DNA of 64,000 nt, from the NCBI RefSeq assembly GCF_900141885.1, contig NZ_FQYY01000001.1:186001-250000 (forward strand), read 5' to 3'. Under the pieces are notes generated by a model, which had not been told where the DNA came from, did no database searches, and saw only the letters and a list, made by a program, of their open reading frames with translations. Both the position numbers and the translations under genes were made by a program. This DNA is from Mesonia phycicola (GTDB taxonomy: Bacteria; Bacteroidota; Bacteroidia; Flavobacteriales; Flavobacteriaceae). Every line of letters starts with the position of its first letter. Position 1 is the first letter of the stretch. Of this stretch, positions 40,566 to 60,790 are shown one piece after another.

Positions 40566-41960
40566 ATGTTTACGCTTAATACCACATCAAAAAAAATAAT
40601 TGCAGATACCATTACACCGGTAAGTATTTATTTAAAATTACGAGATAAATTCCCGCATAGTTTATTACTAGAAAGTAGTGATTATCATGCCAATAAAAAC
40701 AGTTTTTCTTATATCTGTTGCAATCCTATTGCTTCTATAAAAGCAGAAAAAAACACGCTTTTTATTCAGTATCCTGACGGTAGTAAAACGGAAAAAGAAA
40801 TTACCAAAGAAGTACATATTCCTTCAGAAATAGAAAATTTTGCAAAACAATTTAAAACCGAAGACACGCATTATAAATTTATTCATAATGGTATTTTTGG
40901 GTACACCGGTTACGATTCTGTAAAGTATTTTGAAAGCATTCAGCTAACAGAAAAAGAGAATAAGCTAGAAATCCCAGATTTTTATTATGCAGTTTATCAA
41001 AACATTATAGCCATCAATCATTTTAATAACGAGGCCTATTTATTTTCGCATAATTATAATTCTGAAAGTAATTTAGATACTCTTCTCTCTTTATTACAAA
41101 CCAAGAATTTTGCTCAGTTTAATTTTGAAACAGATGGAGATATTACTTCTAACATAGATGATGAAGTTTACAAACAAAATGTAGAAAAAGCAAAAGCACA
41201 CTGTGCACGTGGTGATGTATTTCAGTTGGTGTTATCTAAACGTTTTTCTCAAAAATATAAAGGAGACGATTTTAATGTTTACCGTGCTTTAAGAAGTGTA
41301 AACCCTTCTCCCTATCTATTTTATTTTGACTACGGAAATTTTAAAATCTTTGGTAGTTCTCCAGAGGCGCAATTAGTAGTAGAAGATGAAATGGCAGAAA
41401 TTCACCCAATTGCAGGCACTATAAAACGTAGCGGTGATGATGAACGAGATGCAGAACTAGCTAAACAATTAGCAAAAGACCCTAAAGAAAATTCTGAACA
41501 CGTAATGCTAGTAGATTTAGCTAGAAACGATTTAAGTAGAAACTGCTCTGAAGTAACGGTAGAAACTTATAGAGAAATTCAATTTTTCTCACACGTAATT
41601 CACCTAGTTAGTAAAGTTACCGGAAAGAAAAAAAACAATATAAAAACCATGCAATTAGTAGCAGATACTTTTCCTGCTGGTACATTGAGCGGTGCACCTA
41701 AATACAAAGCATTAGAGTTAATAGAAAAATACGAAACTGTAAATAGAACTTTTTACGGTGGTGCAATTGGTGTAATGGATTTTAAAGGAAACTTTAATCA
41801 CGCTATTATGATTAGAACTTTTTTAAGCAAAGATCACCAACTACACTGGCAAGCGGGCGCAGGTATTGTTACCGACTCAAAACCAGAAAACGAATTACAA
41901 GAAGTGTACAATAAATTAGGTGCATTAACAAAAGCCTTAGAATTAGCAAAAGAATTATAA
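40566..41960 (+). CDS. trpE: Anthranilate synthase component I
   Basis: The start at 40566 (MFTLNTTSKK) gives 464 residues; an in-frame ATG at 40512 lies within the attenuator stem and is rejected. The feedback-site LLES motif is at about residue 34, and the chorismate-binding core has FQLVLSKRFSQKY, IHPIAGTIKRSG, ENSEHVMLVDLARNDL and FPAGTLSGAPKYKA. With TrpG it makes anthranilate from chorismate and glutamine. It is the first structural gene after the attenuator. Confidence 0.96.
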   Translation: MFTLNTTSKKIIADTITPVSIYLKLRDKFPHSLLLESSDYHANKNSFSYICCNPIASIKAEKNTLFIQYPDGSKTEKEITKEVHIPSEIENFAKQFKTEDTHYKFIHNGIFGYTGYDSVKYFESIQLTEKENKLEIPDFYYAVYQNIIAINHFNNEAYLFSHNYNSESNLDTLLSLLQTKNFAQFNFETDGDITSNIDDEVYKQNVEKAKAHCARGDVFQLVLSKRFSQKYKGDDFNVYRALRSVNPSPYLFYFDYGNFKIFGSSPEAQLVVEDEMAEIHPIAGTIKRSGDDERDAELAKQLAKDPKENSEHVMLVDLARNDLSRNCSEVTVETYREIQFFSHVIHLVSKVTGKKKNNIKTMQLVADTFPAGTLSGAPKYKALELIEKYETVNRTFYGGAIGVMDFKGNFNHAIMIRTFLSKDHQLHWQAGAGIVTDSKPENELQEVYNKLGALTKALELAKEL

Positions 41961-41994
41961 ACCTTACTTTTTAAAAGGAAGAAAACATAGAATA

Positions 41995-42085
41995 AATAAA
42001 AATTGAAAGTTCATTATCAACCTGAACTTGATTCAGGTTCTCATCCAGTTACTAAAAATTCTTGATGAGATACTGAAATGAAATT
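41995..42085. repeat. Palindromic repeats in the trpE-trpG gap
   Basis: CCTGAACTTGATTCAGG (about 42021-42037) is the repeat palindrome, followed by TTCTCATCC and a partial second copy (GATGAGATACTGAAAT). The gap of 154 nt contains nothing else recognisable. Confidence 0.75.
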
Positions 42086-42114
42086 ATGAAATTAATTTTT
42101 TAGAAAACATCCAA

Positions 42115-42708
42115 ATGAAAAAAATATTAGTTATAGATAATTACGACAGTTTTGTTTACAACTTAGTACACTACCTAGAAGATTTAAATTGTGAGGTAAC
42201 GGTAAGAAGAAATAACGAATTAGATATAGAAGAAGTAGAAGATTTTGATAGAATTTTACTTTCTCCTGGTCCTGGTATCCCTTCAGAAGCTGGGTTGCTT
42301 AAAGAAATTATAAAAACCTACGCAGCTACCAAAAGTATTTTTGGAGTATGCCTTGGTCAACAAGCTATTGGTGAAGTTTTTGGAGCTAAACTAGCTAATT
42401 TAAATCAGGTTTTTCACGGAGTAGCAACTCCTATTAAAGTGATTGATAATGAAGATACTTTATTTAAAAACCTTCCTCAAAATCTAGAAGTTGGCCGTTA
42501 CCATTCTTGGGTAGTGCAAGATTTACCTAACGTGTTAATCCCTACTTCTTTTGATGAAAACGGACAAATTATGTCTCTCAAACATCAAGATTTTCAAGTT
42601 TACGGAGTTCAATTTCATCCAGAATCTGTACTTACTCCTCAAGGTAAACAGATGCTAAAAAATTGGATTGAAATTCCTGTAAAAAACGAAGAAACCGTCT
42701 CAGCTTAA
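42115..42708 (+). CDS. trpG: Anthranilate synthase component II (glutamine amidotransferase)
   Basis: 197 residues. NYDSFVYNLVHYLE at the start, SPGPGIPSEAG for the oxyanion strand, the nucleophile in GVCLGQQAIGE, and the catalytic His-Glu in QFHPESVLTPQG are all present. It releases ammonia from glutamine for TrpE. It is separate from trpD, not fused. Confidence 0.96.
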   Translation: MKKILVIDNYDSFVYNLVHYLEDLNCEVTVRRNNELDIEEVEDFDRILLSPGPGIPSEAGLLKEIIKTYAATKSIFGVCLGQQAIGEVFGAKLANLNQVFHGVATPIKVIDNEDTLFKNLPQNLEVGRYHSWVVQDLPNVLIPTSFDENGQIMSLKHQDFQVYGVQFHPESVLTPQGKQMLKNWIEIPVKNEETVSA

Positions 42709-42789
42709 CTTTCTAATAAGAAGTTCATTAAAAAGTTTAAAAAATTATTATCAGCTAAATACCTTTTATAAAAAGGAAAATAGATTAAA

Positions 42790-43782
42790 ATGAAACAACT
42801 ACTCAATAGATTAACTCATCACGAAATATTAAGTAAGCAAGAAGCAAAACAGGCGCTTATTAATATTTCTGAAGGAAAAGCTAATCACAGCCAAATAGCT
42901 AGTTTTTTAACCGTTTACATGATGCGCAGCATTACCATTGAAGAGCTAGAAGGTTTTAGAGATGCATTATTAGAGCTAGCAATTCCTATAAATTTATCTA
43001 GTTACAATCCTATAGATTTGTGTGGTACGGGTGGTGATGGTAAAAACACTTTTAATATTTCTACCTTGGCATCTTTTATAACTGCTGGTGCCGGCGTTAA
43101 TGTTACCAAACACGGTAATTACAGTGTTTCTTCTGTTAGCGGAAGTAGTAACGTTTTAGAAAATCTAGGTGTAAAATTTTCTAACGATCAAGCATTTCTA
43201 GAAAACTGTTTAGAAAAAGCTGGCATTTGTGTACTACACGCTCCTCTGTTTCACCCAGCAATGAAGTTTGTAGCTCCTGTAAGAAAAGAGCTAGCTGTTA
43301 AAACCTTCTTCAATATGTTAGGGCCAATGGTAAATCCTGCTAAACCAACTAATCAGGTAGTAGGTGTTTTTAGTTTAGAGCTAGCAAGAATTTATAGTTA
43401 CCTCTATCAAAACACAGATACCAATTTCAGAATTATACACGCGTTAGATGGTTACGATGAAGTTTCTCTTACAGGCAACACAAAAGTGGTTGGTAACCAC
43501 ATAAACACCGTATTAACTCCTGAAGATTTTAATGCAGAAAAAATTAATGCAGAAGAAATTTATGGCGGTAATACAATTCCAGAGGCGGTACAATTATTTC
43601 AAAAAATTTTGAACGGAGAAGGTACGGTAGCACAAAACAATGTGGTTTGTGCCAATGCTGCTTTAGCGATTTCTACTGCTAATAAAATAAATTTAGAAGA
43701 AGCTTTAGTAGCTGCTAAAGAGTCTCTAGAAAGTGGTAAAGCTTTAGATAAATTAAAAATACTTCAAAAATTAAGCGCATAA
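42790..43782 (+). CDS. trpD: Anthranilate phosphoribosyltransferase
   Basis: 330 residues. The PRPP site DLCGTGGDGKNTFNIST, KHGNYSVSSVSGSSNVLE and the FFNMLGPMVNPAKP loop are typical. It joins anthranilate to PRPP. Its stop overlaps the trpC start in TAATG (43780-43784), so translation is coupled. Confidence 0.96.
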   Translation: MKQLLNRLTHHEILSKQEAKQALINISEGKANHSQIASFLTVYMMRSITIEELEGFRDALLELAIPINLSSYNPIDLCGTGGDGKNTFNISTLASFITAGAGVNVTKHGNYSVSSVSGSSNVLENLGVKFSNDQAFLENCLEKAGICVLHAPLFHPAMKFVAPVRKELAVKTFFNMLGPMVNPAKPTNQVVGVFSLELARIYSYLYQNTDTNFRIIHALDGYDEVSLTGNTKVVGNHINTVLTPEDFNAEKINAEEIYGGNTIPEAVQLFQKILNGEGTVAQNNVVCANAALAISTANKINLEEALVAAKESLESGKALDKLKILQKLSA

Positions 43783-44573
43783 TGATAACTATTCTAGACA
43801 CGATTGTGAAACACAAAATCACAGAAATACAACTAAAAAAAGAGTTCTTTCCCACTTCATATTTAGAGAGTTCTGTTTTGTTTGAAAGAACTTGTTTTTC
43901 ATTAAGTAAAAATCTAAAAAATAGTACTAGCGGTATTATTGCAGAACATAAACGTCGCTCGCCATCTAAACCTAATATCAACCAGAATTTATATGTAAAT
44001 GAAGTGGTTTTAGGTTACAAAAAAGCAGGGGCTTGCGGTAGCTCGGTATTAACAGACAATAGTTTTTTTGGAGGTTCTTTAGAAGATTTACAATTAGCTA
44101 GAGCAAGCGTAAACCTACCTTTACTTAGAAAAGATTTTACCATAGATGAGTACCAAATTCTAGAAGCCAAAGCTCACGGGGCAGATGCTATTTTACTAAT
44201 TGCAGCAATATTAACGCCGCAACAAGTACTTAATTTTACAAAACTAGCTCATCAATTAGGCTTAGAGGTTTTGCTAGAAGTACATAATGAAGAAGAGTTA
44301 CAAGTTAACTTAAATGCTCCCGTTCAATTAATTGGAGTAAATAACAGAAACCTAAAAACATTTGAAGTTTCTACCGAAATTAGTAAAAATTTAGCTGAAA
44401 AAATTCCGGAAGAAATGGTTAAAATATCTGAAAGCGGACTAAAATCTGTGAATGATATTATTGAGTTAAGAGAATTTGGATATCGCGGATTTTTAATTGG
44501 AGAAACTTTTATGAAAACCGATAACCCTGGAGCAAGTGCTAAAAAACTAATTGACGAAATTGAGAGTAAATAG
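43782..44573 (+). CDS. trpC: Indole-3-glycerol-phosphate synthase
   Basis: 263 residues, (beta-alpha)8 barrel. IIAEHKRRSPSKPNI carries the catalytic Lys, followed by LLRKDFTIDEYQI, LLEVHNEEEL, IGVNNRNLKTF and SESGL. It closes the indole ring of indole-glycerol phosphate. The start codon overlaps the trpD stop. The gene is not fused to trpF. Confidence 0.96.
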   Translation: MITILDTIVKHKITEIQLKKEFFPTSYLESSVLFERTCFSLSKNLKNSTSGIIAEHKRRSPSKPNINQNLYVNEVVLGYKKAGACGSSVLTDNSFFGGSLEDLQLARASVNLPLLRKDFTIDEYQILEAKAHGADAILLIAAILTPQQVLNFTKLAHQLGLEVLLEVHNEEELQVNLNAPVQLIGVNNRNLKTFEVSTEISKNLAEKIPEEMVKISESGLKSVNDIIELREFGYRGFLIGETFMKTDNPGASAKKLIDEIESK

Positions 44574-44574
44574 C

Positions 44575-44785
44575 ATGATGAGATCCCGTGTCAATCACGG
44601 AATGACGAAAAAATAAAGCCGTCATGCTGAACTTGATTCAGCATCACATCATATTAGGAATTCGGGATGAAGCATAAAATTGAAGATCATAGTCATCCCG
44701 AGCGGAGTCGAGGGACAGCATCGCCTCAGTAGAAAAATTCAAGATAAGGTTCCGTGTCAAGCACAGAATGATAAAAAAATAAAAA
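44575..44785. repeat. Cluster of palindromic repeats in the trpC-trpF gap
   Basis: At least four elements: GATGAGATCCCGTGTCAATCACGGAATGACG, GTCATGCTGAACTTGATTCAGCATCACATC, GTCATCCCGAGCGGAGTCGAGGGACAGCATC, and a partial GGTTCCGTGTCAAGCACAGAATGA (read by eye with small mismatches between copies). No ORF of credible length is in this gap. Confidence 0.8.
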
Positions 44786-44786
44786 T

Positions 44787-45533
44787 ATGAAACTAAAAGT
44801 CTGCGGAATGAAATATGAAGAGAATATAATGGAGTTAGCTCAACTTCAGCCAGACTATATGGGTATTATTTTCTATGAAAAATCTCCTCGTTATGTAGAT
44901 ACAAATATTCCTTCCATTACTTCTACAATCAAAAAAACAGGAGTTTTTGTAAATGCAGAAATAAGTTTTATTCAGCAAAAAATTGAAGATTACAGTTTAC
45001 AGGCGATTCAACTTCATGGGAACGAAAGTGTGGAATATTGTAAAGAATTGAAGAAAAAGCTAAAAAGACCTTTCGACTCCGCTCAAGGTGAGAATAAGCA
45101 GGATGAGATCCCGAATCAAGTTCGGGATGACGGTTTTGAACGTCATGCTGAACTTGATTCAGCATCACATTACACAGGTCAACATAAAAAATCAGTAGAA
45201 ATCATCAAAGCTTTTTCAATCAAAGATCAATTTGACTTTCAAGAGCTAGAAAAATACCTTCTAGTAGTAGATTATTTTTTATTTGATACAAAAGGAAAAA
45301 AACCTGGCGGCAATGGATACACTTTTAATTGGCAAGTTTTAGAAAATTATCCTTTTCAAAAACCTTTTTTTTTAAGTGGCGGTATTGGTTTAGATGAAGT
45401 AGAAAAAATAAAAGAATTTCAGAACAAAAATCTTCCCTTATACGCTATCGACCTTAACAGTAAATTTGAAACAGAACCAGGAAAAAAAAACATAGAAAAA
45501 TTAAAAAATTTTAAAAAGAAAATAAACAGTTGA
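44787..45533 (+). CDS. trpF: Phosphoribosylanthranilate isomerase with in-frame repeat insertion
   Basis: 248 residues, about 40 longer than usual. MKLKVCGM with Cys6 (general base), YMGIIFYEKSPRYV, QLHGNES and FFLSGGIGLDEV are normal, and FLFDTKGKKPGGNG carries the catalytic Asp. After KELKKKL the frame runs through RPFDSAQGENKQDEIPNQVRDDGF and AELDSASHYTGQ, residues about 94-130, which are translated palindromic repeats; normal sequence resumes at VEIIKAFSI. The insert falls in a helix-to-strand loop, on the side of the barrel away from the active site. Confidence 0.93.
   Translation: MKLKVCGMKYEENIMELAQLQPDYMGIIFYEKSPRYVDTNIPSITSTIKKTGVFVNAEISFIQQKIEDYSLQAIQLHGNESVEYCKELKKKLKRPFDSAQGENKQDEIPNQVRDDGFERHAELDSASHYTGQHKKSVEIIKAFSIKDQFDFQELEKYLLVVDYFLFDTKGKKPGGNGYTFNWQVLENYPFQKPFFLSGGIGLDEVEKIKEFQNKNLPLYAIDLNSKFETEPGKKNIEKLKNFKKKINS
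45064..45174. repeat. Three palindromic repeats inside trpF
   Basis: The block holds CCTTTCGACTCCGCTCAAGG (about 45069-45088), then GATCCCGAATCAAGTTCGGG (45105-45124), then CATGCTGAACTTGATTCAGC in the opposite orientation (45143-45162). The minus-strand reading gives an apparent ORF with PELDSGSHP and ERSRKV, the same elements translated in another frame. Total length is close to a multiple of 3, keeping trpF in frame. Confidence 0.88.
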
Positions 45534-45665
45534 TGAGATTCTGAAATCGAAGAATCAACGGAGTTAATCAAGTCCATAATAACGAATTTTTAATCAATAT
45601 CGTTATACTGAACTTCTTGACATTCCGAGCAGACTCGACAAACAGCATCACATCCTATAAATTTT
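45534..45665. repeat. Repeat cluster in the trpF-trpB gap
   Basis: GATGAGATTCTGAAATCGAAGAATCAACGGAGTTAATCAAGT (45532-45573) is the inverted form of the long block found at 253-300 and 385-430. It is followed by CTGAACTTCTTGACATTCCGAGCAGACTCGAC.. and GCATCACATC. No gene. Confidence 0.75.
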
Positions 45666-45671
45666 TAAGAA

Positions 45672-46856
45672 ATGAAAACACACCACATTAACAATAAAGG
45701 CTATTACGGTGAGTATGGCGGGGCTTATATTCCAGAAATGCTTTACCCTAATATTGCGCAATTAAAAGAACAATATTTATCTATTTTAGGCGAAAAATCT
45801 TTTCAAGAAGAATACCAACAATTACTACGAGATTATGTTGGTCGCCCTACTCCACTCTATTTTGCAAATAGATTAAGTGAAAAATACAACACCAAAATCT
45901 ATTTAAAAAGAGAAGATCTTTGCCATACTGGAGCACACAAAGTAAACAATACAGTTGGTCAAATTTTACTGGCAAAACGCTTAGGTAAAAAAAGAATTAT
46001 TGCAGAAACTGGCGCTGGACAGCATGGTGTTGCAACAGCTACCGTTTGTGCATTAATGGGTATGCCTTGCTTTGTGTATATGGGAGAAATTGATATGCAG
46101 CGCCAAGCACCCAACGTAGCAAGAATGAAAATGTTGGGAGCAGAAGTTATCCCTTCTACCTCTGGTAGTAAAACCTTAAAAGATGCTACTAACGATGCTA
46201 TTAGAGATTGGATTAATAACCCAGAAGAAACGCATTATATAATTGGTTCGGTCGTTGGTCCGCATCCGTATCCAGATATGGTAGCACGTTTACAAAGTAT
46301 TATTTCTCAAGAAATTAAACTACAGTTAAAAGAAAAAGAAAATAGAACCAACCCAGATCATATCATTGCTTGCGTAGGTGGTGGTAGTAATGCTGCTGGC
46401 GCTTTTTATCATTATTTAGATGAAAAAGACGTAAATCTTATTGCTGTAGAAGCTGCAGGAAAAGGAATTAATAGTGGGGAAAGTGCTGCAACCTCTCAAC
46501 TTGGTAACGACGGTATTATTCACGGAAGTAAAACCCTTTTAATGCAAAGTAAAGACGGACAAATTACCGAGCCATATTCTATTTCTGCCGGATTAGATTA
46601 TCCAGGAGTTGGACCAATGCACGCACATTTGTTTAGCAGCAAACGAGCAGAATTTTTATCGGTTACAGATGATGAAGCAATGCAAGCTGGCGCCAACTTA
46701 ACACAATTAGAAGGTATAATTCCTGCTATAGAAAGTGCACACGCATTAGCGGCATTAGATCAAAGAAAGTTTCAACCTAAAGAAGTGGTAGTAGTTAACC
46801 TTTCTGGTCGTGGTGATAAAGACCTAGAAACCTATATGAAGTATTTTGATTTATAG
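45672..46856 (+). CDS. trpB: Tryptophan synthase beta chain
   Basis: 394 residues. [14 protein letters not shown] at the start, the PLP lysine in [15 protein letters not shown] (about residue 88), [27 protein letters not shown] for the phosphate loop, and SGRGDKD at the end. It joins indole and serine. It works as a complex with TrpA encoded 134 nt downstream. Confidence 0.97.
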
Positions 46857-46869
46857 TTTTTAAAGTATT

Positions 46870-46980
46870 AAAAAACGTCACCTGTTCTCACACTGAGCGG
46901 AGTCGAAGTGTTGATTCAGGGTCATATCAAAATTTAACTAATAAATGAGATTCCAGATCAAGTCTGGGATGAAGAATAAA
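46870..46980. repeat. Repeat cluster in the trpB-trpA gap
   Basis: GTCACCTGTTCTCACACTGAGCGGAGTCGAAGTG is followed by a fragment, TTGATTCAGGGTCATATC, and by GATTCCAGATCAAGTCTGGGATGAAG. These are the same families as elsewhere in the operon. No gene in this gap. Confidence 0.75.
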
Positions 46981-46990
46981 ACTAAACACA

Positions 46991-47755
46991 ATGAATCGTA
47001 TCTCTCATAAACTACAAGAAGACAAAAAATTACTGTCTATCTATTTTACCGCAGGTTATCCGCAACTTAACGACACTAAAACTATTCTAGAAAATTTAGA
47101 AAAATCTGGCGTAGATATGGTAGAAATTGGCTTACCATTTAGTGATCCGTTAGCAGATGGCCCAACCATACAAGCTAGTTCTACGCAAGCTTTAAATAAC
47201 GGAATGACTACAGAAAAGCTTTTTGAACAACTTAAAGACATTAGAAAAACAGTTACCATTCCGTTAATTATCATGGGATATTTTAACCCAATACTACAAT
47301 ATGGAATTGAAAATTTTTGCAAAAAATGTGCTGAAATTGGTATCGACGGTCTTATTATTCCAGATCTTCCCTTAGAAGTTTATACGGAAGAATATCAAGC
47401 GATTTTTCAGCAATACGGTTTACAAAACATCTTTTTGATCACGCCACAAACTTCAGAAAAACGTATTCAACAGATCGATGAAGCTTCAGAAGGATTTATT
47501 TATATGGTGAGTTCTGCAAGTATTACCGGAGCAAAAAATAGTTTTGGTGACGCGCAACAAGCTTATTTTGAAAGAATTGATCAAATGAAACTTCAGCATC
47601 CGCAAATTGTTGGATTTGGAATTAGCAATGCTGAAACTTTCGACAAAGCTACTCAATTTGCTAAAGGAGCCATTATTGGTTCAGCTTTCATCAAACACCT
47701 CACCGAAAACGGAACGCTACAAATTGAAAGTTTTATCAAGCAGATTAGAATGTAA
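46991..47755 (+). CDS. trpA: Tryptophan synthase alpha chain
   Basis: 254 residues. VEIGLPFSDPLADGPTIQ carries the catalytic Glu, and DGLIIPDLPLEV the catalytic Asp; MGYFNPIL and VGFGISN are also typical. It cleaves indole-3-glycerol phosphate to indole, passed to TrpB. It is the last gene of the trp operon. Confidence 0.96.
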   Translation: MNRISHKLQEDKKLLSIYFTAGYPQLNDTKTILENLEKSGVDMVEIGLPFSDPLADGPTIQASSTQALNNGMTTEKLFEQLKDIRKTVTIPLIIMGYFNPILQYGIENFCKKCAEIGIDGLIIPDLPLEVYTEEYQAIFQQYGLQNIFLITPQTSEKRIQQIDEASEGFIYMVSSASITGAKNSFGDAQQAYFERIDQMKLQHPQIVGFGISNAETFDKATQFAKGAIIGSAFIKHLTENGTLQIESFIKQIRM

Positions 47756-47760
47756 ATAAA

Positions 47761-47880
47761 TGCTTTCGTCATTCCGGACTTGATCCAGAATCGCATACTA
47801 TTTTGAGAAACAAAATATTAATAATGAGACTTCGACTCCGCTAAGTATTACAAACGGGTATTGGTTTGTTATGTTGATTC
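47761..47880. repeat. Repeats downstream of trpA
   Basis: GTCATTCCGGACTTGATCCAGAATCGCATAC (47769-47799) is a variant of the palindrome, followed by a fragment with TTCGACTCCGCTAAG. No clear terminator stem with a T run is visible between trpA and the opposing gene. Confidence 0.65.
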
Positions 47881-47895
47881 ATTACCAATATTCAA

Positions 47896-48435
47896 TTAAC
47901 CTTTCAAAAAACTTTCTATTTTCAATAAAGTTTTCCAATTTCGTGCGGTTGCTTTAGTTTTTAATTTTTTCTCTATAAATGTTGTAGAAAGTTTAGAATT
48001 TCTAACACCTTCGGTATAATTTACATAAAGATGTTTTTCTTCAATTTTAAATTGTTCCGAAGGAAATTCTAGTTCTTTAAAAGCATTAACTAAATCTTGA
48101 GCAGGATTTTCTTTTAAAAATATAAGATGCAATTGCTTAAAATCTTCTGCGTTTGAAAACGGGTTTTTAGATATTGCTTTTTCAATCTCTCCAGCTGTTC
48201 TTATAACTACAGGAATATCATAAGTATATTCATCTAACAAATGTTGCGCTAATTTTTCTTCTAAAATTCTAGCATTTTTTTCTTCCGAAGTAAAAAATAA
48301 ATTTCCACTTTGAATGTAGGTAGAAACTTCTGTAAAGTCAATTTTTAAAACCGATTCTCGTAAATCGGCCATTTTTAATTTTCGTTTTCCACCCACATTT
48401 ATACCTCGTAATAAGGCTACATATTTTTGACTCAT
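47896..48435 (-). CDS. DUF1697 family protein
   Basis: 179 residues. YVALLRGINVGGKRKLKMADL at the start, STYIQSGNLFFTS, and VVIRTAGEIEKAISKNPF are the family landmarks, with a C-terminal LKTKATARNWKTLLKI. The family is widespread and cytosolic, with no known reaction. It converges on the trp operon. Confidence 0.9.
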   Translation of the reverse strand: MSQKYVALLRGINVGGKRKLKMADLRESVLKIDFTEVSTYIQSGNLFFTSEEKNARILEEKLAQHLLDEYTYDIPVVIRTAGEIEKAISKNPFSNAEDFKQLHLIFLKENPAQDLVNAFKELEFPSEQFKIEEKHLYVNYTEGVRNSKLSTTFIEKKLKTKATARNWKTLLKIESFLKG

Positions 48436-60465: not shown

Positions 60466-60790
60466 AAAGCCTCCCCTAACCCCTCCAATGGAGGGGAATT
60501 AAACAAAGTTCCTTCCCTTAGTAAGGGAAGGTGGATTTTTCAACGCAAGTTGAAAAAGACGGAAGGGTTTTATTTACCCATACCTTAAATTTTCTTTTGA
60601 ACCGTCCGCTATCTGATGAGATCTTGACATCGAAGATTCAACGGAGTTAATTAGCTAAATGCTGAAAAACAAACAATATTTACCTTCTGAAGTTAACCAC
60701 TTTGAAAGGTTAATAATTGTCAGTTCGAGCGGAGTCGAGAACTATTTTTATTGAAATACGGTTTCTACTCCACTCAACCTGACCTCTACA
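60466..60790. repeat. Repeat-rich gap between the RidA and aldehyde dehydrogenase genes
   Basis: CTCCCCTAACCCCTCCAATGGAGGGG is followed by the CCTTCC element (60510-60570), then GATGAGATCTTGACATCGAAGATTCAACGGAGTTAATTAG (60616-60655), an inverted copy of the block at 253-300, then TTCGAGCGGAGTCGAGAAC and TCTACTCCACTCAACCTGACC. The 450-nt gap holds no gene. A promoter for the downstream genes may be present but I cannot point to it. Confidence 0.8.

Follow-up and report, generated by a model that had tools for sequence, protein, structure and literature searches.

In-frame palindromic repeats in the TrpF of a flavobacterium and the repeated use of one loop across its family

We found that the trpF gene of the window (the whole stretch of 64,000 nucleotides that was analysed) contains repeat DNA that is read in frame within one loop of the encoded enzyme, that the core of the gene is still under selection, and that the same loop is reused across the family. 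We consider it probable that mobile REPs of the CGTC type persist in frame in trpF because this loop, which lies where the two half-barrels join, can accommodate them. In-frame REPs as such are already known (Rickettsia RPEs, GTAG/CGTC REPs); what is new is that a single TrpF loop is used again and again throughout a family. Our literature search, for which subscription papers were mostly out of reach, gave no report of repeats in TrpF and none of the family-wide reuse of one loop, and the searched passages of the paper on CGTC REPs (PMC3733652) hold no TrpF or anthranilate case.

Results

The trpF frame is intact and gives a Pfam PRAI match of 118 bits that is split into two stretches; the genome holds one TrpF match. 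The features of the region are collected in Table 1. With the nearest relative lacking the insert (G001; the window's genome is G000) as the reference for loop length, the helix 4-strand 5 loop measures 47 aa in the window's TrpF versus 7 aa in G001, so that about 40 residues are extra, in agreement with the 36-40 that the first-pass annotation had claimed. Poor alignment of the loop makes the stated ends of the insert region approximate. Translated in the trpF frame, positions 45064-45174 read RPFDSAQGENKQDEIPNQVRDDGFERHAELDSASHY. Three of the six frames of this 111-nt segment are stop-free, and a composition shuffle is open in any given frame in 10% of draws. The claimed in-frame insertion of repeat DNA was borne out by the open 248-aa frame together with the genome-wide repeat matches, and no repeat-free relative in the genus alignment was seen to carry the same extra residues.

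Table 1. Position of trpF, its insert and the surrounding repeat DNA in the window.
Feature	Position	Strand	Basis
trpF, 248-aa phosphoribosylanthranilate isomerase including the in-frame repeat insert	44787..45533	+	ORF, Pfam PRAI, PDB relatives 1dl3, 1lbm/1nsj
Insert region, about 40 residues beyond the G001 loop, low model confidence	45063..45188	+	genus alignment, model
Unit C, weak palindrome ACCTTTCGACTCCGCTCAAGGT, with further copies in the genome	45068..45089	+	sequence; genome matches
Unit A, CGTC-tagged palindrome, 8-bp stem, 5-nt loop, 3-nt tail CTC	45105..45132	-	sequence; repeated in genus
Unit B, CGTC-tagged palindrome, 8-bp stem, 5-nt loop, 3-nt tail CAC	45141..45168	+	sequence; exact copy elsewhere
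Intergenic copies of the insert's repeats, trpC-trpF gap (genes as read)	44572..44773	.	repeat families D2, D6; genome matches
More degenerate repeat DNA, from trpF to the gene read as trpB	45531..45668	.	repeat families D8, D12

Three palindromic repeats had been described within the insert. Two of them, units A and B, stand fully: their stems are perfect and begin with AT, the loop is CTTGA, and the two lie head-to-head, 8 nt apart, an arrangement that has a like at 44602/44620. The third, unit C, is only a weak palindrome with 5-bp arms (ACCTT/AAGGT) and 12 nt between them; query bases 11-38 or 12-38 were matched at C34 and, at two places, in C19. Unit B recurs exactly over 30 nt at 44620-44649, in the gap between what we read as trpC and trpF.

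CGTC REPs have been defined by a CGTC end, an 8-9 bp stem starting A-T, a 4-5 nt loop and a short tail that is mostly CCA, with head-to-head dimers predominating; Bacteroidetes are among the reported hosts, the elements come without a dedicated transposase, and some copies sit inside genes (passages of PMC3733652). Judged by their sequence, A and B fit most of these features. Both begin with CGTC (A on the minus strand), have an 8-bp stem starting AT and a 5-nt loop, and form a head-to-head dimer; the genome gives no PF01797 match, and copies are found inside genes. The tails CTC and CAC differ from the CCA of the consensus. Unit C, with no CGTC end and 5-bp arms, is unlike a CGTC REP and was not filed as one.

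A search of this genome with the insert gave 42 matches, or 35 places when merged. The majority of these (29 of 35) lie outside ORFs, at both sizes tested (100 aa and 80 aa), three are within the conserved genes trpF, leuS and metG, one overlaps the edge of a 118-aa ORF, and two are in or at one 87-aa ORF. Rfam gave nothing at gathering scores across 41900-47900. Searched with the single profile PF01797 (Y1_Tnp), this genome gave no match, and eight of the 16 genus genomes have one. A RAYT as the mover of the repeats was rejected because this genome has no Y1_Tnp gene: short palindromes spread genome-wide are shared with the RAYT/REPtron systems, but the repeat-flanked tyrosine transposase gene of those systems has no counterpart in G000. 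Elsewhere in the window, at 1047-2811 and 148-480, we saw long direct repeats: a 152-nt unit present three times with a spacing of about 620 nt, and, close to where the window begins, a pair in tandem-like order.

TrpF was found in ten of the 16 genus genomes, five with inserts and five with short loops. Dating through relatives, which the first-pass annotation had proposed, proved feasible, in that the insert is present in G000, G005, G013, G006 and G012 and absent from G001, G007, G002, G008 and G014. The loops of the five carriers have 46-82 residues, all in frame. Their common part is an A-B-like core, and the other units are placed differently: C precedes A in G000, a C-like unit lies inside B in G005 and G013, and G006 and G012 show longer stacks. 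Because the A-B-like core is common to them, an insertion before the five carriers split is the simplest history, with further gains or losses in 3-base steps after it. The number of A+B matches, counted on both strands among the matches listed, agrees partly with carrier status, being 41 in G000, 50 in G005, 48 in G013, 22 in G006 and 40 in G012, and, among the TrpF-bearing non-carriers, 15 in G001, 23 in G002, 1 in G007, 2 in G008 and 1 in G014; the insert is absent from G002 despite its 23 listed matches. The remaining genus genomes (G003, G004, G009, G010, G011 and G015, six of 16) gave no TrpF match and may have lost tryptophan synthesis.

The trpF core is under purifying selection, with a dN/dS of 0.100-0.142 in six carrier pairs and of 0.138-0.186 in five pairs with at least one non-carrier. 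In the insert, dN/dS is about 0.6-0.8 in the pairs with usable values, from which we conclude that the insert peptide is little constrained, and dS is like that of the core in most pairs. Between G006 and G012, insert dS is 0.13 and core dS 0.99. Simple vertical drift does not explain this contrast, which would follow if lineages had exchanged the insert or if the insert were under some constraint. Cys6 and Asp167, which we take to be the catalytic pair of TrpF, are invariant in both alignments, so that the catalytic residues appear to be intact, as had been claimed.

In the structural model of TrpF (mean pLDDT 84) strand 4 is at residues 73-76, followed by a helix at 82-92 and a strand at 138-145, and residues 100-114 and 116-133 have a pLDDT under 50. 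The best structural matches of the model are the PRAI structures 1pii, 1nsj and 1dl3. The insert is predicted to be a disordered stretch leading from helix 4 to strand 5. In a TrpF-type barrel the helix-to-strand loops point away from the active site, and the modelled position would place the insert on the non-catalytic side, where the first-pass annotation had put it. The insert lies where the two (beta-alpha)4 halves meet; passages of PMC3741200 treat the part-barrel modularity of this fold, and work on stable PRAI fragments is cited there.

We drew 299 genomes evenly from the family, 278 of them with a TrpF match, and in 24 of the 278 (23 plus G000) a long insert breaks this match. All 24 broken matches are split at one loop, around query residues 79-111; 28 genomes had two TrpF matches, of which G018, G041, G192 and G303 were excluded (two separate genes or a stray hit). 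Outside the family, a broken match was seen in none of the 47 genomes with TrpF in a class-wide draw. From 150 TrpF loci, six were dropped as unparsed and 144 were kept, an uneven sample that contains ten genus sequences and otherwise the best named hits, the best family hits and the two-match genomes. In this sample, 59 of the 144 sequences have at least 10 extra residues after G001 residue 93, and not one has as many anywhere else in TrpF. Many family members have loops of 3-7 residues and no insert. The insert trait is clustered on the tree (27 changes versus a shuffled mean of 38.6 and minimum of 32), and part of its spread is therefore inheritance.

The loops of at least 12 aa point to a repeat origin that goes beyond the genus. 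DNA outside trpF is matched by 45 of these 68 loops (E 1e-3), and by 1/67 and 5/68 of the controls, which were same-length segments of the same genes; because the other 23 long loops have no match outside trpF, some loops are of other origin or decayed. Searched against 501 kb of coding and 102 kb of intergenic DNA, mostly from trp neighbourhoods and with trpF excluded, the loop library gave 92 intergenic matches, seven at edges and one in an ORF of doubtful appearance. In 10 of 12 genomes, a composite of one non-CGTC loop repeat was found elsewhere besides trpF. At least three repeat kinds, told apart by their peptide patterns, recur in the TrpF loop: a CGTC-like kind (18 rows, at least 12 tree changes), an NDEVIS-like kind (16 rows, at least 11) and a FRAQSR-like kind (6 rows, at least 2). 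The peptide patterns that set these kinds misfiled the L181 row, and the changes were counted on a quick tree with gains and losses mixed. A clean sorting of the loops into repeat families was tried and given up, single linkage having put 42 of 68 into one cluster; mosaic loops connect the kinds, which sequence linkage therefore fails to part, so the count of independent landings is only approximate. Evenly spaced runs of part of a TrpF-loop repeat were also seen at G234:C1:2380497-2381745 and 2750107-2752214.

A second loop with the same habit of taking repeats is that of the LeuS editing domain. In the window's genome, leuS has one or more in-frame repeat units in the editing domain (L023 1501-1574), and metG has one between the anticodon-binding and the tRNA-binding domains (L191 1516-1543). 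Of the 78 genomes or loci with a LeuS match, 48 were used to read the loop, two loci being unparsed. Among these 48, 27 loops have 12 residues, 17 have 16-35, eight of which match DNA in TrpF loci, and four have 140-213; all four of the longest contain a DUF559 domain. Within the genus, repeats occupy the LeuS loop of G000, and DUF559 occupies that of G006, G012, G007, G014 and G008 (Pfam run for G006 only), and the IleS of G012 has an in-frame DUF559. Altogether, in-frame DUF559 was seen in the LeuS loop of nine genomes and in the G012 IleS (L251-L255, L270, L226, L231-L233; confirmed by Pfam in L251, L270, L226, L231, L232 and L233). A literature search for DUF559 with leucyl-tRNA synthetase found no report, again with subscription papers mostly out of reach. 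At ten free DUF559 loci chosen from 25 matches, several of them orthologues (L256-L260, L263-L266, L271), 18 of the 19 palindromes in 13.2 kb are of a CC type such as CCTTCCCT..AGGGAAGG. The trpF loci of other genera and of the genus mix, 653 kb in all, have no palindrome of this type, and the window has one, at 60511-60531; near the ten in-frame DUF559 copies scanned there are none.

Discussion

We propose that short mobile palindromes of CGTC REP type, which are scattered over the genome, inserted in frame among the trpF codons for the helix 4-strand 5 loop. Most insertions elsewhere in genes would break the product and be lost by selection, and the TrpF loop, on the non-catalytic face and at the half-barrel junction, may tolerate a floppy extension. 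Because the loop would tolerate length, insertions in it could be retained and accumulate, new ones arriving next to or within older ones, and the repeat would be translated into a disordered peptide that hardly alters activity. Against this reading stand the 23 long loops that match nothing outside trpF, a fold z under -2 in only 24 of 57 loops of at least 19 aa, the 23 matches of the insert-free G002, the share of the spread that is inheritance, and the G006/G012 contrast between insert and core. Loop tolerance has been proposed in print for in-frame REPs and RPEs, with hotspots left possible (passages of PMC3733652, PMC2229807 and PMC3767692).

The likeness to the palindromic elements of Rickettsia that had been pointed out for this insert held up: RPE-4 and RPE-6 are CGTC REPs according to passages of PMC3733652, the class that A and B fit. 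RPEs are in-frame palindromes in conserved genes and in surface loops, with orthologues carrying inserts at one site, and the gmk product with an RPE insert is reported to be active (passages of PMC2229807 and PMC3767692). The trpF insert resembles them in its palindromes, in lying in frame in a loop of a gene whose core is under selection, and in recurring at one site of orthologues. It differs in that the named TrpF relatives are Flavobacteriaceae and allies, another phylum than Rickettsia, that the units are shorter, and that several repeat kinds occupy one enzyme loop family-wide. In Xanthomonas recB, different REPs are located at about one site in two species (passages of PMC3733652), which is similar to TrpF in that differing REPs share one gene site, but two species stand there against many genera here.

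It is possible, though rather unlikely, that the DNA of the site is a preferred target, in which a motif or an older repeat draws new insertions and survival plays the lesser part. The nested and adjacent elements of G005/G013, G006 and G012 fit this idea, as do the repeats that also crowd the trp intergenic gaps and the lack of 10 or more extra residues elsewhere in all 144 sequences; against it, different repeat kinds occupy the TrpF site and short repeat-free loops are common.

One may also speculate that the insert is useful, its mRNA hairpin slowing the ribosome or shaping the operon mRNA, or its peptide aiding folding or partner binding. The RNA of 45058-45189 gives a strong compound hairpin (-43.2 kcal/mol, z -5.33, 0/200 shuffles as good), and the loops fold better than control segments, with a hairpin z under -2 in 24 of 57 loops of at least 19 aa versus 9 of 113 controls and a median fold z of -1.43 versus -0.39 (Mann-Whitney p 1.7e-6). 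The site at the half-barrel junction and the G006/G012 insert, less diverged than the core, point in the same direction. A palindromic origin alone, however, also predicts a hairpin excess, 33 of the 57 long loops have no strong hairpin, many family members have loops of 3-7 residues without an insert, and insert dN/dS is near 0.6, with core-like dS in most pairs. We regard a useful insert as improbable.

Slightly more doubtful still is that permissive loops of essential enzymes of this family (TrpF, LeuS, IleS) are landing sites of one splicing-free invader in two forms, as bare palindromes and as an in-frame DUF559 (Vsr-like) nuclease domain that spreads the palindromes by cutting them. Such a system could account for the LeuS loop with repeats in G000 and DUF559 in five genus relatives, and for the free DUF559 genes ringed by CC-type palindromes; but the palindromes near DUF559 are not of the CGTC kind, none surround the ten in-frame copies scanned, and TrpF showed no DUF559. 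Finally, that trpF is a decaying pseudogene with the insert as a mark of decay is hardly credible and was rejected on the strength of the selection on the core and the conserved residues: six of 16 genus members without a TrpF match mean that the tryptophan pathway can be lost, but the frame is open in five carriers with inserts of differing lengths, core dN/dS is about 0.1, and the catalytic residues are invariant.

TrpF offers a natural series in one family, from no insert through one repeat to stacked and nested repeats and decayed remnants. The series allows tests of how proteins are lengthened by mobile repeats, and of why inserts that are nearly absent from other sampled coding DNA are taken up by a few loops (TrpF helix 4-strand 5, LeuS editing domain).

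As a minor observation, TrpF is fused to a TrpB-like sequence, on the basis of motifs only, in 14 of the 144 parsed frames (L065, L072, L094, L101, L108, L112, L128, L131, L150, L153, L156, L163, L183 and L184).
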